DNA of 64,000 bases from Chitinispirillales bacterium (lineage in GTDB: Bacteria > Fibrobacterota > Chitinivibrionia > Chitinivibrionales > Chitinispirillaceae), in assembly GCA_031254105.1 (NCBI GenBank), contig JAIRVB010000044.1:1-64000 (forward strand), written 5' to 3'. A model generated the notes under the pieces. It had not been told where the DNA came from. It searched no databases and saw nothing but the letters and a program-made list of their open reading frames with translations. A program made the position numbers and the translations under genes. This document shows positions 5,469 to 63,427 of the stretch, piece by piece (position 1 is the first letter of the stretch; every line of letters starts with the position of its first letter).

Positions 5469-8400
5469 ATGTTAAATCTCATTTTCGCACCATCCGCGGA
5501 TCGGCTCGTTTCGCTTGCCGGAAAGCTCATCAAAGAGATATGGAAAGACCCTTTTGACCCGCCGACAATTATAGTACCAAATCCGGCCATCGGTAAATGG
5601 CTCAGCATGCGGCTTGCCGAAGGACAAACGCGGCAAAATTCTAATGATGAAATAGATATCGCCGGGTTTGGCTGTATAGCAAACGCGCGTTTTGTGAGAT
5701 TGGAAAAATTCCTGTGGAACTCTCTTGAGCCGGAGCCGGACACTCACCTGATTGAAGTCAAACACTTATCGCAGGTGATATGCGCGCTTTTAGATGAGAC
5801 TCTTCTTGAAGACAATATTTACAAGCCTCTCAAAAATTACCTCCGCTCTGATGGAAACGGTAAAATTGACTCGCTGAAGCGGGTACAGCTTTCAGCCGGA
5901 ATAGCGTCTCTTTTTCTTGAATACGAGTACAACAGGCCAAGCGTCTGGAATGAAACAAGCGCGCGGTGGAGCCCTCACGGCATTGACGGACAATGGCTTT
6001 GCGGCAAAAATTACTTTCAGAACGATTCCGCGCATGAACTATGGCAAAAAGATCTTTACCGTAAAGCTTACAAATGCTTTTCGGAAAATGGAAAGCGCGT
6101 CTGGACAACACTGCCTCATCTATACAGAAAAAAACGGGAGGAGTGCGGCAAGGGAGATACGCTGTGGCGCAACACGGGATCACAACTAATACTGTTCAAC
6201 GTTTCAAAAATAAGTCACTTTCACCGCAACACTCTTGTAGAAATATCGCAAATTGATAATGTGGATATGCACCTTTTCCTAACCAACCCCTGCGCTGAGT
6301 TCTGGGAAGATGTTGACACAAGCAGAAAACGCAGCCCAAAACGGAGATGGAGCCATAATTCCCCCAGCAGTATCGCCGCTATAAAACCGATGCAACCCGA
6401 TGACTATAACAAGGAAGAACTCAGCGCGTTTGAAACTTCACAAGACCATACACTTCTCAAACTATGGGGCAGCGCGGGGAAGGAGAACATCTCTCTGTGG
6501 TGTCAACAGGCGCAGTGGAATTTTGATTACCACTGTCCCGATTTAGATAACGGCGCGGAGCCCAAGACGCTTTTACAATCACTTAAGAAATCACTTCTTT
6601 TGCGGGATGATAATCTTGAGACACAAAAGTGTGATCTGAAAAACGACCGCAGTTTGCAAATCTTAGCCTGCCCTGACAGAAGCCGTGAAGTTGAGGAGCT
6701 GAGAGAAATTGTTCTTGACATGGTTTATAACAGGGCAATTGTAAAATTCAATGATATCGCGGTTTACATGCCTGATCCGAATATTTATCTGCCCCATATA
6801 CAAAGTGTATTCGGAGCGTACAGTCAAAACGATACCGAATACATCCCATTTACAATGCTGAACGCGTCCGGTGCGTCAAGTATGGTCAGTCAGGGGATAT
6901 CAAGCCTGCTAAATATTATCGGAGGAAAGTTCGACAGGCCGCAAATTTTCGCGCTTTTAAAGAACCCTATAGTGCAGGCGAGCAGAAACTTTTCACCGGA
7001 TATGGTTACAGTATGGGAGCGCTGGGCGCGGGATTTAGGGATGTTTCGCGGCTACAACGCTTCAGGACGAAAGAGCATGGGAGACAAAGGCGAAGCGGTA
7101 AACGACGCTCACACATTCAAGCAGGGACTCTCCCGCATTCTTACAGGTAATTTAGCGGCGGGCCCTGTCAACTTAGGTTACAGCTCAGGCGGCAGCGCCG
7201 GCGAGCCGCTTCTAACCCACCCTTACCGGGATATAGACGCGTCTGATGAAGCTTTGGCGGAAATATTTTGCGGTTTACTCGAGCAGCTTAATGAACTTAC
7301 CGCGCAATTTACTAAAAACGGCTACTTACTTGACATAAAAGAGACAGTGGAACTCATAAAAAAAGCGGTGTGGTTCTGGCTATGCGACATACCTGACAAT
7401 GAACAGATCAAAAGCGGCGCGGAAGAGAGCGTACGGCAGGAACTTATTGAGGGGCTTGATCTGATTACGCTTCAACAAACACTGGCAGGCAGAAACAGCA
7501 TCTCTCTTGAAGAGTTTACAGCACTTGTACGGACTTGTCTTCCGCAAGAGCTGCCGTCAACATCTTTTGCGTGGAACGGGATAACCTTCGCTCCTCTGAG
7601 AACATCTATGATAGCGCCTCACAGGGTAATATTTGTTTTGGGACTTGACGCATCCGCTTTTCCCGGAACAAACGGGAAAGGAAGCTGGGATCTGCTTTCA
7701 CAAAAGAGAATCATTGGCGACAGCGACAAAGTTCGGGACAACCGTTTCGCGTTTCTTGAGCTGCTGCACGCGGCAAAAGAGAGAATGATCTTATCTTACA
7801 GAGCGCGTGACATGCAAAAAGATGAGCTGCTTGGACCTTCAAGCGTTGTGCTTGAGCTGGAAGATTATCTTGTCAGTCAAGGACTAACAGAGGTAAGGGA
7901 TGGACGGACGCGCTGCTGTGTGCGCCGGGAGATTCCCTGGGTTGTACATGAATCATTAGATATGGCAATAAATAACGGACGCAAACATGGAACATGGAAC
8001 AAAACACAGTACATGCTTGCTATGCAATATACAAATGCGCGGGATGCGCACCGTCATGATATAGCGTTAGCCAAACCTGTCCCCGCGCAAAAAAGTAAAA
8101 TATGTTACAGCACAAACCTCTCAGACCTGAAACGCTTTTTCTCTAATCCGCTCGAATACCACCTGTATAGAACCCTTGGTGCAGGAGCCAACGAGAGCGG
8201 TACAGATTTGTTTACCGCAGATGAACCGCTTGATTCCGGGTATATCTCAGCGAGGCTCAGGAAAAATGTCTGGGTCGCGGTTTTGGAGATGCTGTTTCCG
8301 GTTGAAAACAGTATGGCTGTTAAAGAGAGCGAACTTGAAAGTATAGCGGTGTCGGAAGCTGAAAAAATCTATGCCAACCACATCGCTTCAGGTTTTGCGC

Positions 8401-61196: not shown

Positions 61197-61307
61197 CTAA
61201 CGATAACGTTTTTTGAAATATACTACAAACTCCGCGACTATCAGTATGATTTCATCACAGTATTCAACAATATGTCCCAGCACATCCCTGTCACGTTCTT
61301 TCAGCAT
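61197..61307 (-). pseudogene. Truncated HepT (HEPN) toxin remnant
   Basis: 36 codons, MLKERDRDVLGHIVEYCDEI then ILIVAEFVVYFKKRYR, start overlapping the MNT gene end by 17 bp. The first ~24 residues match the N-terminus of HepT/DUF86 HEPN toxins (LKERD-x-x-L-x-HI-x-x-Y-x-x-I). The R-x4-6-H RNase centre and everything after are missing, lost at the cimA border. Confidence 0.7.
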
Positions 61308-61602
61308 AAAGCAGCACCTCTTCTTTGGCGATTCTGTTAAGAAATTTTTCTTCCAACGCCCCGGTTGTCAGCAAATCAACCTTTGCGTTTAAAGACCTTT
61401 CCAAATCGCCGTAAACCTCGCATAATCTGAAATAATCCATATCAGCCGGAACATCAACCCTAATATCAATATCGCTTTTGGCCTTTGCGTCTCCACGGGC
61501 GTAGGAACCAAATAAATACATTCGCACAAGCTTATGCCGCTTGGCGACAGGCATAACTTTCTGCCGGATCTCCTCAATCGTGTATCTTGGCTTTCTTTTC
61601 AT
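61291..61602 (-). CDS. MNT-type nucleotidyltransferase (MntA-like antitoxin)
   Basis: 103 residues from the ATG at 61602 (MKRKPRYTIEEIRQKVMPVA, GGAGAGG site). Minimal nucleotidyltransferase: MYLFGSYARGDAKAKSDIDI with both G-S and D-x-D catalytic residues, then VDLLTTGALEEKFLNRIAKE. In MntA-HepT systems this antitoxin AMPylates the HEPN RNase. Here its HepT partner is reduced to 36 codons, leaving an orphan antitoxin. Confidence 0.85.
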   Translation of the reverse strand: MKRKPRYTIEEIRQKVMPVAKRHKLVRMYLFGSYARGDAKAKSDIDIRVDVPADMDYFRLCEVYGDLERSLNAKVDLLTTGALEEKFLNRIAKEEVLLYAERT

Positions 61603-61636
61603 AAAACCCTCTCCTGTACCCAAAATACATCAAAAC

Positions 61637-61672
61637 CAAAAAATAAGGGGAGGCGGACAGCCGCTCTCCCCC
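61637..61672 (-). terminator. Terminator directly after the DGR template repeat
   Basis: On the minus strand a G/C-rich hairpin (ggggagagcgg ... ccgcctcccc, one bulge, CTGT loop, spanning 61647-61672) is followed by a T-rich run (ttattttttgg). It begins 5 bp after the template repeat end, so it would define the 3' end of a template RNA. Confidence 0.78.
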
Positions 61673-61676
61673 AACA

Positions 61677-61859
61677 CAGTCCTGCGCACACCTTAGGGAG
61701 TTACCGTTGCCCTTGTTGTTGGTGTTCTCATTCACATTCTCGCTGCCCGAATTCATGTTCCGGTTGTACGCACCGTTGCCGTCCACCAGTTGCCGTTGCC
61801 GCCAACGTTGTTGAACGTGCCATTGGTGTTGCGGTTGCCGCCAGGCAAAGCCGAGAAAC
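61677..61859 (-). repeat. Template repeat (TR) of a diversity-generating retroelement
   Basis: 183 nt homologous to the 3' end of the FISUMP gene, on the same strand. Twenty-eight substitutions by my alignment; 26 lie at TR adenines (15 A-to-T, 7 A-to-G, 4 A-to-C in the variable copy). The TR has AAC or AAT at 15 of the changed codons. The last 23 nt (tccctaaggtgtgcgcagga plus ctg) are identical in both copies, as expected for the initiation-of-mutagenic-homing region. The TR has a 13-nt deletion relative to the variable repeat, which shifts frame, and no sensible protein is encoded, so it is not a gene. Probably transcribed as an RNA ended by the adjacent terminator. Confidence 0.9.
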
Positions 61860-62111
61860 ATAGCGGAATCTTTCATTAGTTAAGGGAAGGTTTCTTTAAT
61901 AGAAAAATTCCAATAACTGTTACTTATGCTCTCCCGCATAAAACCGCGCGGGGGGGAACGTTCCGCTGGACTGAATATGGGTACGCTTCCGCAATCTTAG
62001 TGTTAGTATTGCGGAACTCTGCCCGTGCAAAAAATATATTTGGCGCGGCCGCCTAACGGCGGATTTTATTTAAAACAAAAAACCGTACCGTATACTCTTC
62101 TGATTAAGCAG
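61860..62111 (-). other. Spacer between the variable gene and the template repeat
   Basis: No gene. It must contain the promoter of the template RNA if it is transcribed separately. A ccgcc-taac-ggcgg hairpin is at 62049-62062 and a cccgc ... gcggg inverted repeat at about 61934-61953 (minus-strand reading). No reverse transcriptase or accessory (avd-like) coding sequence is present. Confidence 0.5.
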
Positions 62112-62172
62112 CGTTGTTTGCCTTACGGCTAACAACGGCAGGTAAAGCATTGCTACGCTATGCTTTGCCTGC
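62112..62172 (-). promoter_or_regulatory. Tandem hairpins directly after the DGR variable repeat
   Basis: Hairpin 1 (62138-62172) has a 13-bp stem with one mismatch and starts 1 nt after the stop of the FISUMP gene. Hairpin 2 (62112-62137) has an 11-bp stem with one mismatch and, on the coding strand, a GTAA tetraloop (GNRA-type). In characterised DGRs a hairpin/cruciform just 3' of the variable repeat is needed for efficient retrohoming. These could alternatively serve as the gene's terminator. Confidence 0.65.
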
Positions 62173-62173
62173 T

Positions 62174-63427
62174 TCAGTCCTGCGCACACCTTAGGGAGCG
62201 ACCGTAGCCCTTGAGGTAGGTGCGCTCATCCACATTCTCGTAGCCCGAAAACATGTTCCAGTAGTACGCACCGCCGCCGCCCTCCGTGGCCGTCCACCAG
62301 CCGCCGTAGCCGCCAACGAGGAAGAACGAGCCATTGGTGAAGCGGTAGCCGCCAGGCAAAGCCGAGAAACCAAATTCATCCGTAACGGCAGGAGTGTCTT
62401 CATCAACCTCCCACCAACCAACGCTTGATTTAAGTTTAGTTCCTGCACCAATCCAAATATTAAAATTAACCCCGTCAAATTCCTTAGTTTCCATCGTTTC
62501 CATCGTACCTCCCACCGCCCGGCCCAAGTCATCCCAATCTTTACGAGTAGGCAAACGCCAACCTTGAGGACACGCTTTCATCGCAGTATTCCAATCGTAC
62601 AATCTTCCATATTTTTCACAATTGGATCTATCATCTTCATAACACCAGCTGTTGCCGGTTTCATAGTTAAGATTCTCCGCCATCCATGTATATTTGCCGA
62701 TTTTCACAGTACGGTATTTCTGACCGTCACGGCTGTCAGTAAAGTAAGAGGAAATCTTCTTAAATCGTTTCTGTTCTTCCGCTAACCGTTTTTGTTCCTG
62801 CGCTAACTCTTTTTTGCTTTTTTGGCGTTTCGTATCAATCTCCTCTACATCTACACTCGCAATGTCAACGCCTATCAGAACTAAATGCCCCTTGCTCTTT
62901 CGGAACGTAACAGGTATTTTTATCTGATGGTCTTTATTTTCAAGCGCAAGCCCTACAAGAACTATCTTGCCCTTACGCTCAACTTTAGCGGCCTTCCGAT
63001 TCACGTTAATATCATCAACTACAAAATCCTTAAAAACTTGTGTAGCATTAGATTTAACATGTTCTCCAATCAATTCCTGTAATTGACCAATAAAAGAGTT
63101 GTTCTCAGACTTGGGCGGCTGTTCTACAAGCGTTTTTACGCCGCCTATAATCAGCTCTTTCATCGCGCCCGCCGCTAACGCACCGGAAAAACCGCTGTTA
63201 CTGCTATTACCTAAAAGCTGTTGGGCAGTCGATACGTAAACAGCATCAACATCAACAAACTTAGAGAACTTTTCCCAATCACGGTTTTCTACCGCGGAAG
63301 ATATAGATTTCAGGGCAAAAGATGGTGTTCCTTTGTAATAGATGTACGAACCTGCAGATAAAACAGTCAATACAATAACAATAACTCCAACTAAAAAAAC
63401 AGACTTCATAGAAACCGTTCTACTCAT
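62174..63427 (-). CDS. Membrane-anchored FISUMP protein, DGR variable target
   Basis: 417 residues. TM anchor at ~8-31 (KSVFLVGVIVIVLTVLSAGS); a DUF2939-like region at ~35-195 (SISSAVENRDWEKFSKFVDV); a charged coiled-coil linker at ~200-228 (KKELAQEQKRLAEEQKRFKK). The FISUMP domain spans ~230-417: YFTDSRDGQKYRTVKIGKYT, WMAENLNYETGNSW, YGRLYDWNTAMKACPQGWRL, WWTATEGGGGAYYW and the end SLRCAQD. FISUMP resembles C-type-lectin/FGE folds. The last ~65 residues are the DGR variable region, with about 18 diversified codons. Likely a surface ligand-binding protein. An AGGAAAG site precedes the ATG. Confidence 0.9.
   Translation of the reverse strand: MSRTVSMKSVFLVGVIVIVLTVLSAGSYIYYKGTPSFALKSISSAVENRDWEKFSKFVDVDAVYVSTAQQLLGNSSNSGFSGALAAGAMKELIIGGVKTLVEQPPKSENNSFIGQLQELIGEHVKSNATQVFKDFVVDDINVNRKAAKVERKGKIVLVGLALENKDHQIKIPVTFRKSKGHLVLIGVDIASVDVEEIDTKRQKSKKELAQEQKRLAEEQKRFKKISSYFTDSRDGQKYRTVKIGKYTWMAENLNYETGNSWCYEDDRSNCEKYGRLYDWNTAMKACPQGWRLPTRKDWDDLGRAVGGTMETMETKEFDGVNFNIWIGAGTKLKSSVGWWEVDEDTPAVTDEFGFSALPGGYRFTNGSFFLVGGYGGWWTATEGGGGAYYWNMFSGYENVDERTYLKGYGRSLRCAQD
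62175..62370 (-). repeat. Variable repeat (VR) of a diversity-generating retroelement
   Basis: 196 nt encoding residues ~353-417 of the FISUMP protein and ending in its stop codon region. Changed codons relative to the template read Y, F, S, F, L, Y, G, G, Y, W, F, Y, D, R, Y, L, Y, R; unchanged codons include the structural WWT, NGSF-type and SLRCAQD positions. Only two substitutions (CGG-to-TGG and the second base of AGC-to-TAC) are not at template adenines. Confidence 0.9.

Follow-up and report, generated by a model that had tools for sequence, protein, structure and literature searches.

Diversity-generating retroelements (DGRs) are exemplified by the element of Bordetella phage BPP-1, in which the genes and the template repeat (TR) lie in the order mtd-avd-TR-brt. 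In this system a hairpin flanking the variable repeat (VR) is needed for homing (PMC3240598) and a motif ending reverse transcription has been reported in the avd 3' end/template RNA region (PMC12875486). Target genes of the Fib_succ_major/DUF1566 type are known from DGRs of human microbiomes, in which targets on contigs lacking a reverse transcriptase (RT) gene were already noted and attributed to fragmentation (PMC4159848). All DGRs found by DiGReF had a core cassette of 2-4 kb (PMC3521204), and the global DGR survey itself states that targets located away from the RT would be missed (PMC8144416). As DGR discovery usually starts at the RT gene, templates without an RT constitute a blind spot. 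Earlier reports describe trans-acting and incomplete DGRs in Thiohalocapsa PB-PSB1 (PMC10907252), remote VRs in Trichodesmium (PMC8867640) and partial DGRs or fragments without RT in nanoarchaea, the latter reported as fossils or remote targets (PMC4372165).

The window analysed here, a stretch of 64,000 nucleotides from a Chitinispirillales bacterium, resembles the BPP-1 DGR in its A-to-N substitution pattern, in the hairpin flanking the VR and in the location of the avd 3' end within the template RNA region, and complete cassettes in relatives follow the same gene order, FISUMP-avd-TR-RT. It differs in that both avd and RT are absent from the window, the target is a bacterial FISUMP protein and the TR is followed by one terminator-like hairpin, not by a long structured spacer. 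The C-terminal target domain is that of the human-microbiome Fib_succ_major DGRs (PMC4159848), so FISUMP as a DGR target has a precedent; in contrast to the RT-less targets of that study, the window TR itself is embedded in a contig of 86 kb that has no RT. Remote VRs, trans diversification and broken loci are shared with the Thiohalocapsa, Trichodesmium and nanoarchaeal DGRs, whereas the trans cases that we found described there use the TR of another DGR locus and here a leader-bearing TR is separate from the RT in several genomes. Our search of open-access text found no account of lone templates that carry a conserved leader. Targets of the FISUMP type and remote VRs are already known, the variant is the stand-alone template, and interest centres on the family of lone cassettes rather than on its member in the window. 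We consider it likely that the window carries a non-autonomous, trans-served template-target cassette which has been orphaned in this genome, most likely recently, and is most likely inactive.

The target is a FISUMP gene on the reverse strand (62174..63427, a 417 aa ORF) matching Pfam PF09603 (9.4e-29), PF11159 (4.6e-6, a DUF2939-like stretch) and NCBIfam TIGR02145 (3e-53). The encoded protein consists of a hydrophobic N-terminal anchor, identified by eye, the DUF2939-like stretch and a C-terminal Fib_succ_major domain. With regard to the C-type-lectin-like fold suggested for this domain in the earlier note, the predicted model was poor (pLDDT 51) and PDB searches returned neither a significant fold match nor a significant sequence match. 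VR1 comprises the last 64 codons of the gene (62175..62370, reverse strand), and the non-coding, AAY-rich TR occupies 61677..61859 on the same strand, both exactly where the earlier note had placed them. TR and VR1 align end to end with a single 13-nt gap, located in the TR, and TR homologues adjoin RTs in G001, G071, G073 and other genomes. The full-length alignment contains 27 substitutions, 25 of which occur at TR adenines (15 A>T, 5 A>C and 5 A>G), corresponding to change at 25/51 A sites and 2/132 non-A sites (binomial p=2.5e-12; Fisher 1.5e-14). The adenine bias previously proposed is therefore confirmed, while the counts given with it, 28 substitutions with 26 at A, are corrected, gap placement being the sole cause of the difference; likewise, the identical 3' terminus shared by TR and VR1 is real but extends over 24 nt rather than 23. 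The A-specific differences mark a genuine DGR product. Ordinary divergence between a paralogue and a pseudogene, with no DGR involved, could draw on the large size of the FISUMP family, which has 14 matches in the window genome, but the confinement of change to A sites, repeated in a second VR and in RT-bearing relatives, renders this explanation so improbable that it can be set aside. Pseudogene-only and chance explanations of the VR/TR differences were both ruled out by the site pattern.

The second VR was detected by searching the genome with the TR, the check for further FISUMP 3' ends that the earlier note had suggested. One additional full-length match, VR2, is located in a FISUMP gene on the unlinked contig C48 (G000:C48:6794-6989). 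VR2 differs from the TR at 24 positions, 22 at TR adenines and 2 elsewhere, and retains the 13 nt missing from the TR; its flank keeps the beginning of the leader (see below), which then breaks off. VR1 and VR2 are identical at 129/132 TR non-A sites, whereas the aligned FISUMP region upstream shows 65% nucleotide identity between the two genes (202/309), a value taken from the codon alignment since free-end-gap identity was dropped when shuffled controls scored equally high. This disparity indicates that the identity within the VRs was written into both genes by homing from a template and not inherited through recent gene duplication.

The TR itself shows signs of decay. The 13-nt deletion (61775..61776, reverse strand) removes nucleotides present in both VRs and in related TRs and puts the TR out of frame, such that, read in the VR frame, it now meets a stop. 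The TR is thus not an intact, in-register template for rewriting the VR over its full length. Alignment position 129 is G in the TR, A in VR1 and C in VR2, and related TRs read AAC there; because both VRs differ at this position and the related TRs retain the adenine, the TR has probably mutated A>G, in which case the true tally for VR1 would probably be 26/27 at A. As neither the deletion nor the position-129 change is seen in either VR, the TR appears to have lost 13 nt and one adenine after its last use, and as each VR has, position 129 aside, just one non-A difference from the TR, that last use was recent. The window cassette is therefore most likely a recently orphaned and now presumably inactive copy, with the caveat that the deletion could be recent in the clone sequenced and that the 3' half of the TR could still serve for partial cDNAs. 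The window thereby shows the death of a hypermutation template, the TR decaying while its last products remain intact genes.

A structured 5' leader of the template RNA (61865..62024, reverse strand) matches covariance model R1 at 163.9 bits. R1, used for the genome searches, was built from five sequences and contains 157 positions and 43 pairs. The leader derives from the avd 3' end and the avd-TR gap. Among nine full-length leaders, 18 pairs are changed on both sides, a value reached by 0/500 shuffled alignments (mean 8.7); pairing is lost when partners are slid, and covariation is likewise seen when remnants are included in a 14-row alignment. An Rfam search of the region matched no family. 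The target hairpin (62138..62172, reverse strand; fold z=-2.9) starts 2 nt after the VR end and occupies the same position in VR2 and in seven other VRs, the stem sequences differing while pairing is kept. As is typical of DGRs, this hairpin lies directly downstream of the VR and not of the TR. The TRs precede a different hairpin, which in the window directly follows the TR with a U-rich run (61635..61672, reverse strand), is terminator-like and is conserved with RT-adjacent TRs. We infer that the template RNA is a separate transcript.

The leader was found in 15/168 Fibrobacterota genomes. At nine loci in eight genomes (G001, G064, G065, G071, G073 twice, G076, G103 and G167) its position is between avd and RT, and a FISUMP gene usually precedes avd, giving the order FISUMP-avd-TR-RT; seven of these nine loci include a TR/VR pair whose mismatches fall at A in 83-100% of cases. 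The leader and TR of the window are homologous to those between avd and RT, which places them with the Avd-type FISUMP DGRs of Fibrobacterota. Most named leader matches belong to metagenome bins assigned to Chitinispirillia and Fibrimonadaceae, which we take to be from termite guts. The lineage of the window itself looks closer to Chitinispirillia-type Fibrobacterota than to Fibrobacter. Lone leader-TR arrangements, with avd and RT absent from the retrieved flanks, were detected in the window and at G015:C123, G010:C56, G021:C224, G019:C118 and L158; the cassettes of G010 and L158 are cut short in their 3' part or have no hairpin there. Additional truncated leaders sit behind FISUMP or other genes. 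The G015 lone TR differs from its neighbouring VR by 19 A mismatches and 1 other, in a genome that is 91% complete and without any RVT_1 match. The L158 cassette (JAITUN010000289.1), a lone FISUMP VR-leader-TR arrangement, is on a contig filed as Bacteroidales, reflecting either misbinning or cross-phylum transfer. The leader pattern was absent from IMG/VR viral contigs, giving no sign of a phage carrier. Pattern matches in GUT77 (L148) and in an alphaproteobacterial MAG (L153) were rejected, as no TR follows them and they are probably fragments or chance. A Fibrobacter-like genome, G046, has a FISUMP-avd-leader-TR-like locus without RT on contig C1 (L143:6673-8570) and a complete DGR on another contig (L091).

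Separation of template and enzyme is clearest in relative G019. Its avd-RT locus (C131) contains an intact RT, but between avd and RT there is no leader and the TR has lost its 5' half. The lone TR on contig C118 has matching VRs at C118, C56, C24 and C16, which agree with it at 97-99% of the non-A sites; they show 2, 2, 2 and 4 non-A mismatches, respectively, and 24-33 A mismatches, and the upstream regions of the four VR genes are just 48-59% identical. A second lone TR-like copy in this genome (C105) was considered and rejected as a source, the other VRs not being explained by it. Combined, the G019 and G015 observations fit, rather than prove, a helper locus serving dispersed template-target cassettes, the genomes being drafts. 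The lone-TR comparison genomes all look, from their record titles, like metagenome bins, such that an avd-RT pair could be unassembled or a TR lying next to its RT misassembled, which would count against service in trans.

These observations bear on the possibility that the window locus is a fossil formed in place, a complete DGR having lost avd and RT at this site and never having passed through a functional RT-less stage. Such an origin agrees with the descent of leader and TR from avd-TR-RT operons, with the decay of the TR and with the partly deleted avd and leader at G019:C131. We nevertheless regard it as unlikely, since several lone cassettes share the same order while keeping leader, TR and terminator hairpin, and since the lone TR of G019 accounts for VRs at four loci, the RT locus of that genome having no complete TR. 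The G019 remnant itself (L104:340-583) consists of the first 35 nt of avd fused to the avd 3' end and followed by a leader, the whole lying 1.2 kb ahead of the intact avd-RT pair, as if a snapshot of avd deletion with the leader kept. Dozens of FISUMP genes in G019 (L169-L188) and G015 (L189-L208) show A-biased differences from one TR together with 7-20% non-A divergence, and may be older targets or targets of other templates.

In the window genome, neither RT nor avd lies beside the TR, nor is an HRDC accessory gene part of the locus, this accessory being confined to the DGR on contig C19, and the Avd of FISUMP-type DGRs was not found in the genome, a 56-contig draft rated 100% complete. Only one RVT_1 match was obtained, on contig C19. 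A DGR-type RT is thus present in the genome, as the earlier note required, but belongs to a different DGR. The C19 RT is full length, carries the DGR-type IGNLTSQ motif and has as its best PDB match the RT chain of 8ub7 (3.2e-30), which we take to be the BPP-1 DGR RT-Avd-RNA complex. The locus (L016:9195-12173) is a complete second DGR composed of an FGE-sulfatase gene, an HRDC protein, RT and TR; relative to its TR, the VR carries an insertion of 5 nt, which shifts the frame such that the protein acquires an odd tail of ~50 residues. No match to this RT was found among the named GTDB genomes searched. Like the FISUMP cassette, the C19 element has an A-specific TR/VR pair (19/21 mismatches at A); unlike the cassette, it has a DGR-type RT of its own, another accessory, target and TR RNA, a TR downstream of the RT and a VR with an insertion. 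The C19 enzyme, being full length, DGR-type and resident in the same genome with its own A-specific pair, might also read the FISUMP TR in trans. This appears very improbable, because the C19 TR lacks the R1 leader (no match in L016), the accessory is HRDC and not Avd, and recent FISUMP homing in G015 (19/20 at A) occurred in the genome without an RVT_1 match.

The earlier note described a DGR acting on a FISUMP protein; it mentioned neither the loss of frame caused by the 13-nt gap nor VR2, nor the lack of an RT beside the TR. Derivation of the A-to-N pattern from a DGR is upheld by the two VRs, the VR-flanking hairpin, the complete RT-bearing FISUMP DGRs of relatives and the DGR-type RT elsewhere in the genome. 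Present action is not, given that RT and Avd are absent in cis, the sole RT of the genome is in another DGR and the TR has decayed. The system could alternatively be intact and active, if its cognate avd-RT escaped assembly, resides on a plasmid or varies between strains and if the TR deletion arose very recently or through misassembly. Both VRs are in frame and have one or two non-A differences each from the TR, indicating recent homing, and in a 56-contig draft, even one rated 100% complete, small or plasmid-borne loci can be missed, a point that also weighs against orphaning. Continued activity is nonetheless improbable: the genome yielded neither avd nor a second RT, the TR also carries the A>G change seen in neither VR, and full-length homing from the present TR would truncate the protein.

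Under the preferred reading of a trans-served cassette, the window would retain the template-target half of a DGR, consisting of FISUMP VR, target hairpin, leader, TR and terminator-like hairpin, the enzyme half being absent. An Avd-RT pair from a different locus, presumably of the class found in relatives, would copy the leader-TR RNA, and A-randomised cDNA would home into FISUMP 3' ends both adjoining the template (VR1) and on an unlinked contig (VR2). Lone cassettes would descend from canonical FISUMP-avd-TR-RT operons that lost avd and RT but retained the RNA and DNA elements acting in cis. In the window genome, where a matching Avd-RT was not found, the TR has subsequently lost 13 nt and one adenine. 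We propose more tentatively, as a possibility falling somewhat short of even, that some Chitinispirillia-type Fibrobacterota possess a split DGR, in which a helper locus encoding Avd and RT, without a complete TR, serves scattered, non-autonomous template-target cassettes, the template RNA of which carries a structured leader and a terminator of its own, one enzyme pair diversifying several unlinked FISUMP surface proteins. If so, RT-first searches miss lone cassettes. The stand-alone template RNA and its covarying leader show which cis elements persist once RT and Avd are lost, R1 provides a search model for more lone templates, and trans action of DGRs becomes directly testable.

Several observations concern genes adjacent to the cassettes. 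The next gene downstream of the window TR encodes an MntA-like nucleotidyltransferase (61291-61623), followed by an acyltransferase-type gene that we read as of the citramalate/isopropylmalate synthase kind. Behind the truncated leader of VR2 on C48 (L102, about 7150-7400) lies a gene that is HEPN-like by eye only, such that the two halves of a HEPN/MNT-like pair seem split between the two FISUMP cassettes. Cargo-like genes, including an Rpn-like nuclease recognised by eye, occur between VR and leader or before truncated leaders in relatives (L096:867-1748, L139 at about 6600-7400, L140 and L141), as though insertions favoured the gap between VR and leader.
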